A program made the position numbers and the translations under genes. Shown here one piece after another: positions 2 to 19,540 of a DNA stretch of 30,336 bases. The notes below the pieces were generated by a model that made no database searches, had not been told where the DNA came from, and saw only the letters and a list, made by a program, of their open reading frames with translations. The stretch comes from a virus, in IMG/VR virus record IMGVR_UViG_3300022200_008045, positions 1-30,336 of that record; one strand, 5' to 3'. Positions within the stretch are counted from its first letter, which is position 1. Each line of letters begins with the position of its first letter.

Positions 2-319
2 ACAAAGAAAATCATTGTGTTTCATTATTCAATCCTGTCAGAAGGTATCAATGTGCCCGGATTGACTCATTGCATTATGCTTAGGAATCTTCCGACAGTT
101 GAGATGTTACAAACAATCGGTAGGGTCATTCGAGTTGCAAAGGAAGACAGAGATGCTATTGAGAAGAGAAAGATTCAACCAGGGCAATTTGAGTTCTACA
201 AAAAGTCGGAGGGCAAAATTATCATCCCAATATCTAAAGGATACGGAGCTAACATTCAACGAAACATTCAGAATCTCGTTGATGCGGTATTTGTCCAGGG
301 TCAGACTGTAGTTTCTTAA
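2..319 (+). CDS. Superfamily 2 DNA/RNA helicase, C-terminal fragment (5' end outside window)
   Basis: The frame is open from base 2, so the gene began upstream of the window and only its last 105 codons are present. The fragment holds helicase motif V (SEGINVPGL) and motif VI (QTIGRVIR with the arginine finger), which together mark the second RecA-like domain of an SF2 ATPase. These motifs couple ATP hydrolysis to nucleic-acid translocation. After motif VI there is a roughly 60-residue tail (KIQPGQFEFYKKSEGKIIIP and onward) without a further domain I can name. T4-like phages carry the SF2 helicase UvsW, but motifs V and VI here do not read like UvsW as I remember it. A type III restriction-like or DEAD/DEAH helicase fits equally well. 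The helicase class is clear; the exact family is not. Confidence 0.8.
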   Translation, partial: TKKIIVFHYSILSEGINVPGLTHCIMLRNLPTVEMLQTIGRVIRVAKEDRDAIEKRKIQPGQFEFYKKSEGKIIIPISKGYGANIQRNIQNLVDAVFVQGQTVVS

Positions 320-2929: not shown

Positions 2930-3011
2930 TGTGCCACCTGTAGAAGTGGCACAATAAATGAGCACAGACCCAAAAATGGTCTATACTGTATAGGTGGTTG
3001 AGAGAGACCAC
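2930..3011 (+). promoter_or_regulatory. Hairpin-promoter cassette, copy 4 (sequence-divergent, same architecture)
   Basis: The first hairpin is nearly identical to copy 2: TGTGCCAC (2930-2937) / GTGGCACA (2946-2953). Downstream the sequence is unrelated to copies 1-3, yet a second hairpin AGACC (2966-2970) / GGTCT (2978-2982) again ends on the first T of a -10 box, here TATACT (2982-2987), 51 nt from the hairpin start. A third stem GTGGT (2994-2998) / ACCAC (3007-3011) follows. The next ATG is at 3039. Confidence 0.65.
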
Positions 3012-3038
3012 ACTTTTGTTCTTTACTCCTTCTCTTCA

Positions 3039-3215
3039 ATGACTACAGCACAACGAATGGAACGTCAATTCTTTATTCGATTCATCACACTTGTCAATGA
3101 TGTGCAAGGATATACTCAACTGCCTTCTGAGATTAATTCTTCGCGGAAGTCAACTTGGATGAAACAGGTAAAGAATCCAAAGATGAAGAAAGATGCACTG
3201 TCTTCCGTAAAATAA
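3039..3215 (+). CDS. Small basic protein of unknown function
   Basis: A 58-residue protein (MTTAQRMERQFFIRFITLVN...) with a basic C-terminal half (KSTWMKQVKNPKMKKDALSSVK), so a nucleic-acid contact is conceivable but unproven. The frame also opens at GTG 2994, which lies only 12 bases after the -10 box of cassette copy 4 and inside a predicted leader hairpin. ATG 3039 is therefore the better start. No clear ribosome-binding site is present, as for most genes in this cluster. No family is recognised. Confidence 0.55.
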   Translation: MTTAQRMERQFFIRFITLVNDVQGYTQLPSEINSSRKSTWMKQVKNPKMKKDALSSVK

Positions 3216-3224
3216 TGGTATAAT
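3216..3224 (+). promoter_or_regulatory. Extended -10 promoter (TGGTATAAT)
   Basis: TGGTATAAT matches the TG-N-TATAAT extended -10 element exactly, one base after the preceding stop codon. Extended -10 promoters can work without a good -35, and none is seen here. Transcription would begin near 3231, inside or just before the hairpin at 3227-3249, and run towards the DnaA-box cluster. Confidence 0.55.
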
Positions 3225-3226
3225 TG

Positions 3227-3249
3227 TTAACATATTAAAAATATGTTAA
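3227..3249. repeat. Perfect 10-bp AT-only-rich inverted repeat
   Basis: TTAACATATT (3227-3236), loop AAA, AATATGTTAA (3240-3249), followed by AAAA. On the + strand it lacks the T-run of an intrinsic terminator. On the - strand it would be preceded, not followed, by T. It may be a 5' mRNA stem or a binding site for a dimeric regulator. Confidence 0.6.
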
Positions 3250-3282
3250 AAAACCATTTAATCTGTTCTTATTGTGTATCTA

Positions 3283-3462
3283 ATGTCTCCAATTGTTATG
3301 TTAATGTCTCTACTTATCGTAGTCTTGGCCCGCATTATACCACAAAAACTTCGTGGTGTCAAGAGAACTGGGACACCTGACAAAGTGGCACACTGGGAGT
3401 TTTCCACAACCCTGTGGAAAACTATTTTTCCACAAGTAATTAATAGTTTTCCACAGGGTTGA
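3283..3462 (+). CDS. Possible small membrane protein; doubtful
   Basis: A 59-codon frame starting at ATG 3283 (an upstream GTG at 3274 is also possible). Residues 1-20 (MSPIVMLMSLLIVVLARIIP) look like a signal-anchor, followed by basic residues (QKLRGVKRTG) as expected for a cytoplasmic flank. An extended -10 promoter lies upstream. Against it, the last 25 codons run straight through a cluster of four DnaA boxes and a long inverted repeat, so the C-terminal peptide (FSTTLWKTIFPQVINSFPQG) is largely dictated by that DNA. Either the gene is short and tolerates the overlap, or the frame is accidental and the stretch is regulatory. Confidence 0.35.
   Translation: MSPIVMLMSLLIVVLARIIPQKLRGVKRTGTPDKVAHWEFSTTLWKTIFPQVINSFPQG
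3355..3377 (+). repeat. Hairpin GGTGTC/GACACC
   Basis: GGTGTC (3355-3360) pairs with GACACC (3372-3377) across an 11-nt loop. A competing stem ACCAC (3339-3343) / GTGGT (3353-3357) overlaps it, so the two are mutually exclusive if transcribed. It lies just upstream of the DnaA-box cluster. Confidence 0.4.
3398..3461. other. DnaA-box cluster with nested inverted repeats; candidate replication origin core
   Basis: Four exact copies of TTTTCCACA, a DnaA box form used by cyanobacteria: 3400-3408 (+), 3413-3421 (-), 3426-3434 (+) and 3447-3455 (+). Starts are 13, 13 and 21 bp apart. Boxes 1 and 2 form an 11-bp hairpin (3398-3408 with 3413-3423). Box 2 and box 4 sit in the arms of a perfect 20-bp inverted repeat (3407-3426 with 3442-3461, 15-nt loop). 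The two hairpins exclude each other. The right arm overlaps the -35 box of the promoter at 3459. That this works as an origin is inference; the boxes and repeats are seen directly. Confidence 0.65.
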
Positions 3463-3487
3463 CATTAACTCACAAATGCACTATGAT
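3459..3487 (+). promoter_or_regulatory. Near-consensus sigma70 promoter
   Basis: TTGACA at 3459-3464, a 17-bp spacer, and TATGAT at 3482-3487. This is the best host-type promoter in the window. It points into 640 bp with no ORF, and its -35 box is overlapped by the inverted repeat that carries DnaA boxes, so occupation of those boxes could block or modulate it. Confidence 0.75.
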
Positions 3488-3753
3488 ATTAGGTGAGATA
3501 GCAGTTGTTATATACCACCCCCCCTATTCGTGCATTTTGAGGTATGATATTACATAGGAGTTCGTATTCGTTATGCGTCCTCTAAGGTGTCTATAATCGT
3601 CTACAATCGTATTGAGAGGTTATTCGAGTATAGTTCGTGGTTTAATTCTTATTACGTCTTGTGGAGGGTTATAGAATGTCGTTGTAAATATTCGATTTAC
3701 TCGTAGTTTATATTCGTGTGAGTTATATAATTATAATTAATCTGTCGTGGTAT

Positions 3754-3867
3754 ATTATTAACAATACAACTTACAGATCTGTCTATTAGTTTACTATCAT
3801 CGTATATGTAATACTAATAGACAGTGAGTTTCGTATTCGTTATACCTGCAATATTATTGTTAATAAT
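3754..3867. repeat. 13-bp inverted repeat enclosing the 12-bp inverted repeat
   Basis: ATTATTAACAATA (3754-3766) is the exact reverse complement of TATTGTTAATAAT (3855-3867). The pair flanks the 3779-3824 inverted repeat, so the whole 114-bp block could fold as one nested stem structure. Confidence 0.6.
3779..3824. repeat. 12-bp perfect inverted repeat
   Basis: CTGTCTATTAGT (3779-3790) and ACTAATAGACAG (3813-3824), with a 22-nt centre that can pair further (TTAC with GTAA). The half-motif ATAGACAG recurs at about 3880-3887. It could form a cruciform or a stable RNA stem. Confidence 0.7.
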
Positions 3868-4066
3868 TAGTATTCGTCCATAGACAGTTATACCGGGGGG
3901 TTGATGTTAATTATTATCGGTAATGCGATATAAAAAAGGCAAACATCCCTAACCTACAACGAACCAAAATCGAGAGAGAGATTTCGAGTTAATAAAAAAA
4001 ATTTTTGGGTAATTTTTTCCGAGAAACCAAAAAAAATCCGTGGTAAAAAACCTGTGAGGAACTTGA

Positions 4067-4095
4067 TTGACAAGGGATAAATAATCGAGTATCAT
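4067..4095 (+). promoter_or_regulatory. Overlapping sigma70-type and T4-type late promoters
   Basis: TTGACA (4067-4072), a 17-bp spacer and TATCAT (4090-4095) form a good sigma70 promoter. The late octamer GATAAATA (4076-4083) lies within the spacer. A/T tracts at about 3994-4050 could act as an UP element. The next gene starts at 4131, so it could be read both by host-type sigma early and by the phage late sigma later. Confidence 0.6.
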
Positions 4096-4130
4096 TGAGT
4101 TGGTACGATATAACCTAATTATTACTTAAG

Positions 4131-4901
4131 ATGGCAAAAGGATTTAAAGTTAAGGCGACAGCACCTACAAAGGCATCCGAAGGGGAAACAGGGGATAGTC
4201 TATTTGATATCGAAGAATGTAAGGAGAGAATCAGAGGGAAGACGATTGTATTCTGCCTTCCAGGCAGGGGCGTTTCGTATCGCTATCTGAAGAGTTTCGT
4301 ACAGTTGTGTTTCGATTTAGTTCAGGCAGGAGCAAGCATTCAGATCAGTCAGGACTATTCAAGTATGGTCAACTTTGCTCGATGCAAATGCCTAGGCGCA
4401 AATGTACTGAGAGGACCGGACCAACTTCCTTGGGATGGAAAGTTGACATACGACTATCAGTTATGGATTGACTCAGACATTGTTTTCAACACCGACGCAT
4501 TTTGGGCAGTGTTTGCAATGGACAAGGATATTGCTTGCGGATGGTATGCAACAGAAGACGGAAGGACTACAAGTGTCGCGCATTGGCTTGAGGAGGATGA
4601 CTTCAAGAACAATGGGGGAGTAATGAACCACGAGATGGTAGATACGATTGGTCAGCGTAAGAAGCCATTTACAGTTGACTATACAGGATTTGGTTGGACA
4701 CTGATCAAGAAGGGCGTATTTGAGCACTCTGAGATGAAGTACCCCTGGTTTGCCCCACAGATGCAAGTCTTCGACTCTGGAGAGGTTCAGGATATGTGTG
4801 GAGAGGACGTTTCGTTCTGTCTCGATGCTAAGAAGGCTGGATTTGAGATCTGGTGTCATCCACAGGTCAGAGTTGGTCACGAAAAAACCCGAGTCATTTG
4901 A
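4131..4901 (+). CDS. GT-A fold glycosyltransferase (family 2-like)
   Basis: A 256-residue protein. Residues 37-45 (KTIVFCLPG) are the first Rossmann strand. Residues 109-120 (YQLWIDSDIVFN) carry a D-S-D motif at 114-116, the DxD-type site that binds the metal and nucleotide sugar in GT-A enzymes. Residues 222-227 (MCGEDVSF) give the conserved G-E-D, with the acid as likely catalytic base, and the end (AKKAGFEIWCHPQVRVGH) is the usual closing strand-helix. It should transfer a sugar from a nucleotide donor; the acceptor (virion protein, DNA or host envelope) cannot be told. Residues 1-30 are a charged extension before the fold. The gene is visibly more G+C-rich than the structural genes downstream (32 of 60 bases in 4741-4800), which suggests separate acquisition. 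A dual promoter lies upstream. Confidence 0.8.
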   Translation: MAKGFKVKATAPTKASEGETGDSLFDIEECKERIRGKTIVFCLPGRGVSYRYLKSFVQLCFDLVQAGASIQISQDYSSMVNFARCKCLGANVLRGPDQLPWDGKLTYDYQLWIDSDIVFNTDAFWAVFAMDKDIACGWYATEDGRTTSVAHWLEEDDFKNNGGVMNHEMVDTIGQRKKPFTVDYTGFGWTLIKKGVFEHSEMKYPWFAPQMQVFDSGEVQDMCGEDVSFCLDAKKAGFEIWCHPQVRVGHEKTRVI

Positions 4902-6334: not shown

Positions 6335-6739
6335 GTGCCTCTCAATGCAGTATCAATAGGATTTAAAGATATCAGTCTATCTTTTTTAAGAAATCCTGTA
6401 ACAAATGATATTACATCTTTAAGAAATGAAGATGCAATAAAGAAATCAGTATTCAATTTAATTAGAACTCAGGTAGGAGAAAGGTTCTTCAATTCTCTTC
6501 TAGGTTCAAATGTTGAAGGATCCCTATTTGAACTTGCGACAGATAATTTACTTGATCCACTAGAGATTGAAATTAAAAACGTAATTAATAACTTTGAACC
6601 TAGAGTAATATTAAGGGAAGTTGAAGTTGATCCTTTACCAGATAGAAATACATTAAATATTTCTATATCTTACGATATTGTTGGATTAGGTGCTCCTACA
6701 CAAACAATTAACTTTGTATTACAACCAACCCGATACTAA
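6335..6739 (+). CDS. 25: Baseplate wedge subunit gp25
   Basis: A 134-residue protein of the GPW/gp25 family, close to the usual length. Signature residues are T-x-x-G-E-R at 45-50 followed by the FFNSLLGSNVEGSLFE stretch (51-66), and the E-P-R-V-x-L-x-x-V-x-V-x-P strand (88-100). In T4, gp25 lies in the core of the baseplate wedge, contacts gp6 and gp53, and is related to the sheath handshake domain, so it helps nucleate sheath polymerisation. The start is a GTG (6335); the only nearby ATG (6345) is out of frame. GAGAAAG upstream (6323-6329) can bind ribosomes. It overlaps gp6 by one base (TAATG). Confidence 0.93.
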   Translation: MPLNAVSIGFKDISLSFLRNPVTNDITSLRNEDAIKKSVFNLIRTQVGERFFNSLLGSNVEGSLFELATDNLLDPLEIEIKNVINNFEPRVILREVEVDPLPDRNTLNISISYDIVGLGAPTQTINFVLQPTRY

Positions 6740-16831: not shown

Positions 16832-19540
16832 ATGCCAATATCAGGTTCTACAAATTCAATTTTTGTGCCAACTAGTTTTGGTACTAATGCTTTTAATTTA
16901 AAGTCAAAAGGTGATTCAATTTTTTTTAAAATTTTTGATGGGTCAAGTATAGAAACTGTAGATTTAAATAGAGATAAAATAACTATTAAAAATCACTTTT
17001 TTAAAACGGGTGAAAAATTAACATATAGAATTGAGGAAGGTGGAGAAAAAATAGGAATTTCTCCATCAAGTCCTGGAAATACTTTATCAACTACATTTTT
17101 ACCAGATGAAGTATATCCTTTAGTTATTGATTCTGATAATATAAGTCTTGCTTTTAGCCCTTCATTAGCAGAATCAGGTCAAGTTATAGATTTAACTTCT
17201 GTCGGAATTGGTACATTTCAATCTTTAGAAGTTGAAAAGCAAAATACAAAGTGTTTGATTTCAATTGATAATATAATTCAATCTCCAGTTTCTGTTGCTG
17301 CTACCGTTGGTATATTAGATTTTACTTCAAGTAGTTTGACTTTAGATAGTTTAGATAATATAAAAATTGGAACAACTCTCAGAGTATCCAATGAATTAGT
17401 AAAAGTGACAAGAATTATTTTTGAAGATAGCAGAGTAAGTATATTGAGAGGTGAACAATATTTGGGAACAGAAAAGGAAGATTTTACACCTTCAACTACA
17501 ATGGCTGAAGTAATGTCTGGACAATATAATATTGTTAAAGATGTTATTTATTTTACAGATGCTCCATTTGAAGGAATTAGATTGAAGTTTGATATACCTA
17601 CTTCAGATTTGAATTACGAAAATAATTCTTTTAATTTATTTGATAGTGGAATAGAAACTGGATCTTTAATATCAATATCATCACAAAATCCTCCAGATGG
17701 TTTAGAGAAATCTACTAGATTCTTTGCTATTAAAAACTTTGAAAATAATTTTAGTTTTGCTGAAACATTTACAAAAGCAATATCTGGAGAAAAAATAGAA
17801 TTTCAAAATTTAGGTGGAATTGATCCAACATCAAAAGTTGAAGATATTGAGTTAACTTTCATAGATATTTCTGGTGGTAGCAGTTTTTCTGGTAGAGCTT
17901 TTCTTAGGAGTGATTATAGTGGAAATGCAGTATTTGATGATTTTTCTGAGGAGTTTAATGGTATAACAACTTCTTTCGAATTGAAGGAATCTGGAATATC
18001 GACTGTTGGTATAAAATCTGAAAATGGTATTGTATTAATTAATAATTTATTTCAATTTCCAGGTTTTGATGAATCATTTAGTTTTGATGATGATTCTGGA
18101 TCTTCAACTAATATAGTTTTCACAGGAATATCTTCAGCAAATGGATTTACTACTAGTAAAGATTACGATGTTAACATAAGAGGTCTTCCTAGAAATGGTA
18201 TAATAGTTGCATATGGAACAAGCAATGGAACTAACTATCAACCTCAAAGATCAGCAGTTTTATCTGTTACTGGAGTAATTGAAGATGCAAATGGAAATTT
18301 TATTGTTGATTCTGATAATATTGGAATTGCTTTTAGTGGATCAGGTTATAGAGATGTTCCAGGTTCTACAACTTCGATATTCTTTGAAGACAAGTTTGGT
18401 AATAGAATTTCAGGAATTGGTACAGCAATAATTGAAAATGGAAATGTAACTAGTGTTTCTATGTCAGTAGGATCAACATTTACAACATTAGAAGATGAAC
18501 CAATTGTAAAAATAGATCCGCCAATACCATATTCAAATCTTGAATTTTCTGGATCTACAAATGGAGTCGGTGCTAGAGTATCATTAAAGATAAATGATGA
18601 TGGAACAATATCAAATTTAATTCTTACTAATCCAGGATATGGATATACAGTTGGAGAAGTTCTTACAATTCCATCTATTGTAGGGACATCTACTCAAATT
18701 TCTTCTGAAGAAATAGAGTTTACAGTCGAAAGAGTTGAAAAGGATAAATTTTCAGCTTGGAATATTGGTATACTAAGAAAATTAGATGATTTAGGACCAC
18801 TTTCAAATGGAGTAAGAAGAACTTTTAATATAAAGGAAAATGGAGAACTTTTAAGTTTGGAATCTAGTCCAGGTTCAGATATAGAGATTTCTCAAAATGT
18901 TTTAGTGTTTGTAAATGATGTTTTACAAATACCTAATGATTCATATTCATTTGAAGGAGGAACTCAAATTATATTCTCTGAAGCACCTCCTGAAGGAAGT
19001 ACTATAAAAATATATTTTTATGCTGGTAGTGAAAACGATACCTCTATTGTCAATGTAATTCCCCCTATAGAAATTGGAGATAACGTTAAAGTTAAGAAAA
19101 ATTTTGAAGAAAATCCACAAACTCAGCTCAAAAGAACTGTCAAGAGAATCATATCTTCTGACATTTTAAAAACTGAAATTTATAGTGATAAAGGACTTTC
19201 TTTCGACGCTGCTACGTTTAGACCAGTAGACTTAACCCCTCAAAAAAGAGATATATTAGTTGGTGGAGAAAAAATAAGTAAATCTAGGGAATCTTTAAAT
19301 TCTAAAATTGATATTTTTGAACTACAAGTTATTACAACTGGAACTTTTGTAGGTGTTAATACAAATACTGTAGGAATTGATACAACTTCAATTGAGATTG
19401 GAGATTATATAGAATCTGTTTATACTGGAATTGGTATAACAATATCATCAATTTCTACTGGTGAAGTTGGTCTTTCTACTAATTCTAATTCCGATCCTGG
19501 AACTAATACAGTAAATTGTTCTATATTTAGAAAACTCTGA
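16832..19540 (+). CDS. Virion structural protein, probable baseplate or fibre component
   Basis: A 902-residue, almost entirely beta-type protein without cysteine-rich or enzymatic motifs. It shares building blocks with its neighbours: an N-E-L-V-K-V-T...I-L-R-G-x-x-x-x-G-T module at 187-213 that parallels one in the gp7-like protein, and a G-Y-G-Y repeat (NPGYGYTVGEVLTIP) near residue 600. The C-terminal third has the pattern GVRRTFNIKENGE...VLVFVNDVLQIP...FSEAPPEGSTIKIYFYAGS, which is common in cyanophage structural proteins. It follows the gp7-like gene by 6 nt and is the last gene before a late promoter. Location suggests a baseplate-peripheral or fibre role; no T4 counterpart is evident. 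Confidence 0.7.
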   Translation: MPISGSTNSIFVPTSFGTNAFNLKSKGDSIFFKIFDGSSIETVDLNRDKITIKNHFFKTGEKLTYRIEEGGEKIGISPSSPGNTLSTTFLPDEVYPLVIDSDNISLAFSPSLAESGQVIDLTSVGIGTFQSLEVEKQNTKCLISIDNIIQSPVSVAATVGILDFTSSSLTLDSLDNIKIGTTLRVSNELVKVTRIIFEDSRVSILRGEQYLGTEKEDFTPSTTMAEVMSGQYNIVKDVIYFTDAPFEGIRLKFDIPTSDLNYENNSFNLFDSGIETGSLISISSQNPPDGLEKSTRFFAIKNFENNFSFAETFTKAISGEKIEFQNLGGIDPTSKVEDIELTFIDISGGSSFSGRAFLRSDYSGNAVFDDFSEEFNGITTSFELKESGISTVGIKSENGIVLINNLFQFPGFDESFSFDDDSGSSTNIVFTGISSANGFTTSKDYDVNIRGLPRNGIIVAYGTSNGTNYQPQRSAVLSVTGVIEDANGNFIVDSDNIGIAFSGSGYRDVPGSTTSIFFEDKFGNRISGIGTAIIENGNVTSVSMSVGSTFTTLEDEPIVKIDPPIPYSNLEFSGSTNGVGARVSLKINDDGTISNLILTNPGYGYTVGEVLTIPSIVGTSTQISSEEIEFTVERVEKDKFSAWNIGILRKLDDLGPLSNGVRRTFNIKENGELLSLESSPGSDIEISQNVLVFVNDVLQIPNDSYSFEGGTQIIFSEAPPEGSTIKIYFYAGSENDTSIVNVIPPIEIGDNVKVKKNFEENPQTQLKRTVKRIISSDILKTEIYSDKGLSFDAATFRPVDLTPQKRDILVGGEKISKSRESLNSKIDIFELQVITTGTFVGVNTNTVGIDTTSIEIGDYIESVYTGIGITISSISTGEVGLSTNSNSDPGTNTVNCSIFRKL

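Follow-up and report, generated by a model that had tools for sequence, protein, structure and literature searches.

A non-coding stretch in a T4-like cyanophage genome carries an array of DnaA boxes between the genes for a UvsW-like helicase and the gp25 baseplate wedge. We regard the array as almost certainly a genuine and non-random feature of the locus. Host DnaA probably binds the boxes, and their use as an origin is proposed with less assurance; the case draws mainly on the position of the array and on the identity of its word with the published cyanobacterial DnaA box. Our best reading, to which we give slightly better than an even chance, is that the array binds host DnaA within a promoter-rich candidate origin module and serves the initiation of phage replication.

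Gene context of the window

The window, meaning the whole stretch of DNA analyzed here, is an entire IMG/VR record of 30,336 bases whose gene content is that of a T4-like cyanophage. It begins with the C-terminal part of a UvsW-like helicase gene (17..319, plus strand; PHROG 16 DNA helicase, E = 5e-14), which is cut by the contig end and forms the left border of the interval. Small ORFs come next, then the non-coding stretch with the boxes, a gene for a PHROG 1574 protein with weak similarity to glycosyltransferases, gp25 (6335..6739, plus strand; PF04965 and PHROG 261), gp6, and tail and neck genes. On its right side the interval is bounded by the gp25 gene, and in T4 this interval contains oriF: the T4 record annotates oriF (ori(uvsY)) at 115321, between uvsW (112677-114440) and gene 25 (115404-115802). 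A preliminary description of the window had noted that DnaA boxes are foreign to the scheme of T4 origins, and the finding that oriF occupies the same uvsW-gene 25 interval as the boxes sharpens this contrast. Gaps between the small genes of the window contain minus-strand ORFs (671-799, 1387-1515, and 2112-2249) with similar peptides, e.g. IDYFVII, pointing to repeated intergenic sequence.

The box array

Four exact copies of TTTTCCACA lie within 56 bp, as first described: box 1 at 3400..3408 (plus strand), box 2 at 3413..3421 (minus strand), box 3 at 3426..3434 (plus strand), and box 4 at 3447..3455 (plus strand). The exact word occurs nowhere else in the window. With up to one mismatch allowed there are eighteen matches in the window where 15.8 would be expected, and what stands out is therefore confined to the copies that are exact and clustered. 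When the window was resampled 300 times with a first-order Markov model, the maximum number of exact boxes per 60 bp was zero in 164 cases, one in 135, and two in a single case; the observed number is four.

Promoter-like sites and other conserved elements

The array is flanked by two matches to the sigma70 consensus, both of which we treat as putative promoters. The rightward one, TTGACA (3459-3464) and TATGAT (3482-3487) with a 17-bp spacer on the plus strand (3459..3487), had been recognized before and is borne out as a consensus match. The leftward one is absent from the preliminary description: on the minus strand (3334..3362), TTGACA (3362-3357) is followed after 17 bp by TATAAT (3339-3334), with twelve of twelve consensus positions matched and a TG before the -10. 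In the consensus scan this leftward site is the stronger of the two; the boxes separate it from the rightward site, so that the array sits between two diverging sigma70-type sites. At a looser threshold, positions 3000-4130 hold eight promoter-like sites against 5.0 (s.d. 2.3) in shuffled sequence, so what is unusual here is how good the best sites are, and not how many there are. Across 89 nonredundant regions there were 133 promoter-like sites against 35 in mononucleotide shuffles. Both the leftward and the rightward site, each with a perfect -35, are found in all ten loci of the window's clade (L033, L114, L117, L118, L119, L122, L125, L126, L128, and L129). One of these, L033, is near-identical DNA from another contig; it matches the window in all four boxes and in the -35 and -10 hexamers of the two promoter-like sites, and three changes fall in the adjoining motif E1 and its flanks.

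E1 is our name for a motif (CGTAGTCTTGGCCCGC in the window, 3318..3333, plus strand; consensus TGTAGTCTTAGCGCGC) that abuts the -10 of the leftward site. It also adjoins the box clusters of many relatives and, judged by eye, of other cyanophages in culture, several of which have rightward promoter-like sites after it (again by eye). E1-like sequence occurs without exact boxes in Sf-FS3, S-CAM9 and, weakly, S-SSM7. A shorter E1 motif scored at least 10 bits in 44 of 68 loci and in 21 of 167 control stretches, having been trained partly on the same loci. These sixty-eight were hand-picked from seventy-eight nonredundant loci among L002-L113, leaving out L010, L024, L033, L044, L050, L051, L062, L070, L071, and L099. 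A long E1 consensus was dropped, as it scarcely outscored its control (mean score 20.9, against 19.5 for shuffled sequence with a largest shuffled value of 22).

Comparison with other Kyanoviridae revealed a second conserved non-coding element downstream of the boxes, TAATGCG...CCTAACCTAC...AAAAAATTTTT (3921..4006, plus strand). It is also present in P-SSM2, Sf-FS3, S-SSM7, and L143, all of them box-less, and neither in the window nor in six other sources did it match an Rfam family at the gathering threshold. Between the boxes and this element, the 14-mer TTCGTATTCGTTAT is present in two identical copies (3561-3574 and 3830-3843), and ATTCGT-like words are repeated across 3500-3900.

An easily melted AT-rich stretch at 3208..3288 is a possible unwinding element. 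It is the weakest 80-step duplex of 3091-4390 (-1.06 kcal/mol per step, the 98.9th percentile of the window) and is not unique, with 343 stretch starts of the window equally weak or weaker. In an uncontrolled survey of ten phages, mostly covering only a few kilobases of each, the weakest duplex between -300 and +1000 lay at varying distances from the boxes, within 450 bp in eight and farther away in Syn19 and Syn33. S-PM2 has DNA at the 99.8th percentile of genome weakness 345 bp from its boxes, adjoining 3.1 copies of a 17-bp AT-rich repeat. Tandem iterons, as expected of an iteron origin with a phage initiator, were not found in the window, whose tandem repeats are limited to a pair of short arrays with roughly two copies each (3271-3310 and 3589-3610).

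Box clusters in cyanophage isolates

The complete sequences of nineteen cyanophage isolates and T4 were searched for exact TTTTCCACA. At least two exact boxes within 60 bp were found in nine of the nineteen isolates (S-PM2 with three, Syn9 with two, S-ShM2 with two pairs, S-SM1, S-SM2, Syn1 with three, Syn19, Syn33, and S-CAM1), each time 1.5-7.6 kb upstream of gp25. No exact pair within 60 bp occurred elsewhere in any of the nineteen genomes, and when Syn9 and S-PM2 were each resampled 100 times, two boxes never fell within 60 bp. The known hosts include Synechococcus WH7803 (S-PM2 and Syn33), WH8109 (Syn19), and WH8102 (S-ShM2).

S-SKS1 carries a mixed cluster 8.8 kb upstream of gp25, in which TTTTCCACA and two copies of TTATCCACA follow each other at 21-bp steps. 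These boxes adjoin 4.7 perfect copies of a 22-bp repeat (L559 1010-1165; S-SKS1 about 151309-151464), a layout that on sequence is one of putative iterons plus DnaA boxes. The remaining nine isolates (P-SSM2, P-HM1, S-SSM7, Sf-FS3, S-CAM9, S-SRM01, S-CRM01, S-RSM4, and Bellamy) had no exact cluster. Allowing one mismatch in the available gp25-upstream stretches of the box-less isolates added only a loose group in S-SRM01. In S-CAM9, two-copy repeats of 21-22 bp stand directly before E1 (L316 1382-1504).

The S-PM2 array lies at 19231-19264 of NC_006820. An annotated tRNA-Asn and tRNA-Leu at 19177-19333 (L322 7178-7334) overlap its three boxes, and these annotations may be questionable. In Syn9, S-PM2, G001, and G009 the cumulative GC skew mostly rises along the record, interrupted by brief local reversals, and reaches no global extreme at the clusters; it does not mark the array and is uninformative as to an origin. 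One reversal, at 20-25 kb of S-PM2, is just to the right of the cluster, where some genes are on the minus strand.

Box clusters in metagenomic contigs

A pattern of three boxes in alternating orientation matched 112 IMG/VR stretches, and the same pattern with the word reversed matched none. The cluster lies upstream of gp25 or gp6 in all fifty-four loci that hold a relative of either gene (2.5-8.6 kb) and downstream of a UvsW-like helicase in all nineteen loci that hold one; at least one border gene (gp25, gp6, or UvsW) is present in 69 of the 112. After removal of redundancy (68 loci), thirty-four have gp25 or gp6, thirteen have UvsW, and forty-six have any of these, in the same positions. 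Among the 118 listed control loci with TTATCCACA clusters, none matched gp25, gp6, or UvsW. Of the 112 loci, 105 matched one or more ORFs of S-PM2, Syn9, S-SSM7, Sf-FS3, P-SSM2, or the window at E 1e-8, a loose test of T4-likeness because 30 of the 118 listed controls pass it too, and some of the matches are weak.

Single-base variants of the box accompany the exact copies. In nonredundant clusters the commonest is TTATCCACA (eleven), followed by GTTTCCACA and TATTCCACA (eight each); with redundancy kept, across all 105 loci, GTTTCCACA (eighteen) outnumbers TTATCCACA (twelve). Both the search pattern and common ancestry bias the orientation and spacing counts from the 112 loci; in eighty-six loci, spacings peak at 12, 22, 21, and 11 for boxes in the same orientation (83 pairs), at 13, 23, 24, and 14 for plus-then-minus (127 pairs), and at 19 and 13 for minus-then-plus (88 pairs). 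They gather on a few values about one helical turn apart.

Close relatives of the window

Eighty relatives were found through the glycosyltransferase-like protein. Ten have at least three exact boxes within 2.3 kb upstream, and an eleventh (L162) has five exact boxes at 5.6-5.9 kb. The other sixty-nine showed no such cluster in their available upstream DNA, which is often short. The contig of L137 carries a cluster further upstream, and those of L143, L150, and L187 carry none.

In five relatives (L114, L117, L122, L125, and L128), selected for having clusters and aligned with L125 as the reference, every one of the 54 gap-free columns that fall in boxes is invariant; of the 493 gap-free columns outside the boxes, 255 are. 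Eighteen further box columns of L125 are gapped because L125 has one box within a 22-bp duplication and L122 lacks one. With L127 added, the invariant columns fall to 34 of 54 in boxes and 154 of 457 elsewhere, a drop that makes selection on the box letters harder to argue but leaves our estimates as they were, since these depend chiefly on position and word. L127 (83 per cent identity, approximately 770-1370) has no exact boxes: the first two carry single changes and the rest are gone, while the center of E1 is kept letter for letter. The array can therefore decay while E1 stays, and L127 appears from its sequence to be a natural case of box loss. The search for conserved clusters that the preliminary description proposed thus came out positive in about half of the isolates and in the metagenomic loci with border genes; the absence of boxes from close relatives, which it named as counter-evidence, applies to L127 and to nine of the nineteen isolates, and tells in part against its reading.

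DnaA boxes of the cyanobacterial hosts

The word TTTTCCACA is the cyanobacterial DnaA box given in the accessible text of PMC4674748, where Cyanothece DnaA was placed on the box by gel shift and footprint and at least two boxes were needed for binding. Eleven boxes of the TTTTCCACA consensus are described for S. elongatus in the part of PMC3480399 that is available. A DnaA C-terminal domain was not found over the cut-off in twenty-one phage records other than the window, several of them fragments; there was one sub-threshold match (14 bits) in G008. With no phage DnaA domain over the cut-off, the host protein is the natural candidate binder. The earlier suggestion that the boxes are sites for host DnaA gains from this result, from the published word, and from the presence of TTATCCACA alongside it, notably in S-SKS1.

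We also compared the arrays with eleven cyanobacterial genomes near dnaN. Exact arrays stand beside dnaN in three (G016, G048, and G058), and G158 has a single exact box. In G066, G100, and G110 the arrays consist of TTATCCACA instead, and the other four (G206, G018, G072, and G043, with G018 and G043 seen from one side only) show nothing closer than near-boxes; these last two groups speak against our reading. Spacings in six cyanobacterial arrays were 11 and 20-21 (same orientation), 13 and 21-22 (plus-minus), and 17-19 and 29-30 (minus-plus), three of these arrays (L444-L446), only putatively beside dnaN, having also come from the three-box pattern. The phage peaks at 12 (same orientation) and 13 (minus-plus) have no counterpart there.

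The three-box pattern, which demands alternating orientation, matched 4 of 290 genomes in the class of one cyanobacterium, a count that speaks against any plain claim that host origins share the phage layout. In ten small cyanobacterial genomes, exact boxes were about twice as frequent as the reversed word in four and similar or fewer in six. The matches listed from a wider scan of genome contigs were mostly not from cyanobacteria.

Comparison with known origins

T4 oriF resembles the cyanophage locus in its place between uvsW and gene 25 and, going by a review (PMC3016281), may also do so in combining a promoter with AT-rich DNA in a T4-like phage. The review describes oriF as a middle promoter, an unwinding element, and an R-loop primer, and never uses the word DnaA (PMC3016281). 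The two differ in that oriF has a MotA-dependent middle promoter and an R-loop, as far as that source goes, whereas the cyanophage locus has DnaA boxes and sigma70-consensus sites.

Cyanobacterial oriC regions beside dnaN share with the phage array exact copies of TTTTCCACA in clusters and several spacing classes. In S-PM2 and Syn9, however, no dnaA or dnaN is annotated alongside the array, which is accompanied instead by E1 and the CCTAACCTAC element; the same-orientation spacing peaks at 12 in the phages and at 11 in the cyanobacterial arrays.

The nearest precedent that we found for DnaA sites together with promoters at a phage origin is lambda, by analogy and from the accessible part of one source: host DnaA sites lie near promoters, with DnaA footprints downstream of pO, and titles cited there refer to DnaA-stimulated activation of the lambda origin (PMC3985674). 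Unlike the two diverging sites of the window, the lambda promoters pR and pO converge, and the phage and its replisome are unrelated. Lambda also has its own initiator, O.

Our literature search, with few subscription papers within reach, returned no report of DnaA boxes in T4-like cyanophages. The only statement that it returned on a cyanophage origin is the prediction of a single theta origin in Syn9, as cited in the available text of PMC2984593. Syn9, whose predicted theta origin is known here only through that citation, carries a box pair in the uvsW-gp25 interval.

Proposed mechanism

The proposed module would be non-coding and would comprise E1 with the leftward promoter, the boxes, the rightward promoter, and the CCTAACCTAC element, all between uvsW and gene 25. 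Host DnaA would most likely bind the boxes cooperatively and help phage replication to start there. It could assist in unwinding AT-rich DNA close by, or it could stimulate transcription from a promoter, which in turn would prime or activate an origin in the manner reported for lambda. From there the T4-type replisome of the phage itself would take over. Since there are phages without boxes, the module can work without them.

A broader proposal, which we put forward tentatively and rate at somewhat below an even chance, is that much of the T4-like cyanophages use a hybrid origin, in which the T4 oriF locus was rebuilt with a host-DnaA array and diverging promoters, and that other lineages lost the array or exchanged it for other repeats. 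T4-like phages are the textbook case of replication without a host initiator. If the hybrid origin is real, the start of phage replication would be coupled to the initiator of the host cell cycle, and the array would offer a route from the cell-cycle state of the host to the replication of the phage. As the array is present in cultured phages with named hosts, both the start site and the mode of replication of these ocean viruses are directly testable.

Alternative explanations

As the best single reading, an origin assisted by DnaA comes ahead of a pure transcriptional switch, titration of DnaA, and a phage-encoded binding protein. In the first of these alternatives, which we consider unlikely, DnaA would bind solely to regulate transcription from the promoters on either side, as a switch for early or middle genes that senses host DnaA, with no origin present. 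Such a role would fit the placing of the boxes, which in the window and throughout its clade have strong sigma70-type promoter-like sites on one side or on both, with E1 directly against the -10 of the leftward site. The gene that follows the boxes, however, is glycosyltransferase-like in the window and encodes hypothetical proteins in S-PM2 and Syn9, a difference that argues against a switch, and two features suggest something more than one: where the array lies, in the interval of T4 oriF, and the easily melted repeats by the S-PM2 boxes.

It is less likely still that a protein encoded by the phage binds the repeats, their resemblance to DnaA boxes being no more than that. Other 21-22 bp repeats do take the corresponding place in S-SKS1 and S-CAM9, most spacings are common by descent, and the argument for DnaA binding in these phages is built from sequence. 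Against this stands a word identical to the cyanobacterial DnaA consensus, joined by TTATCCACA, likewise a DnaA box, notably in S-SKS1; several phage spacing classes also overlap those of the host arrays.

Slightly less probable again, in our view, is a decoy role, in which titration of host DnaA by the array would stop or delay replication of the host chromosome. Compact arrays of consensus boxes gathered in one region of the genome might suit that purpose, but the isolates and the window's clade have only two to eight boxes, and a decoy would presumably not need one fixed locus between promoters.

The preliminary description stressed a perfect 20-bp inverted repeat, which is present (3407..3461, with arms 3407-3426 and 3442-3461) and nested in a 33-nt pair that is 82 per cent complementary; the 11-bp hairpin that boxes 1 and 2 can form (3398-3423) is present too. 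The 20-bp repeat is not the conserved part of the locus, being seldom so long in relatives. That these repeats act as a transcription terminator or as a hairpin or cruciform is very improbable: the window does have a hairpin followed by ATTTTT with a terminator-like score, and its box region folds far better than shuffled sequence (z = -7.9), but arms of at least 15 bp occur in only 6 of 87 loci, close inverted box pairs are possible in forty-one of these and followed by a T run in only five, and the clustered boxes of Syn1, S-SM2, S-CAM1, and S-SKS1 all point one way, so that a hairpin or terminator was rejected as a conserved function. An Rfam search of seven sources gave a single tRNA and no match at the box locus. 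Finally, the boxes of the window are spanned by a GTG-start ORF of sixty-two codons (3274-3462).
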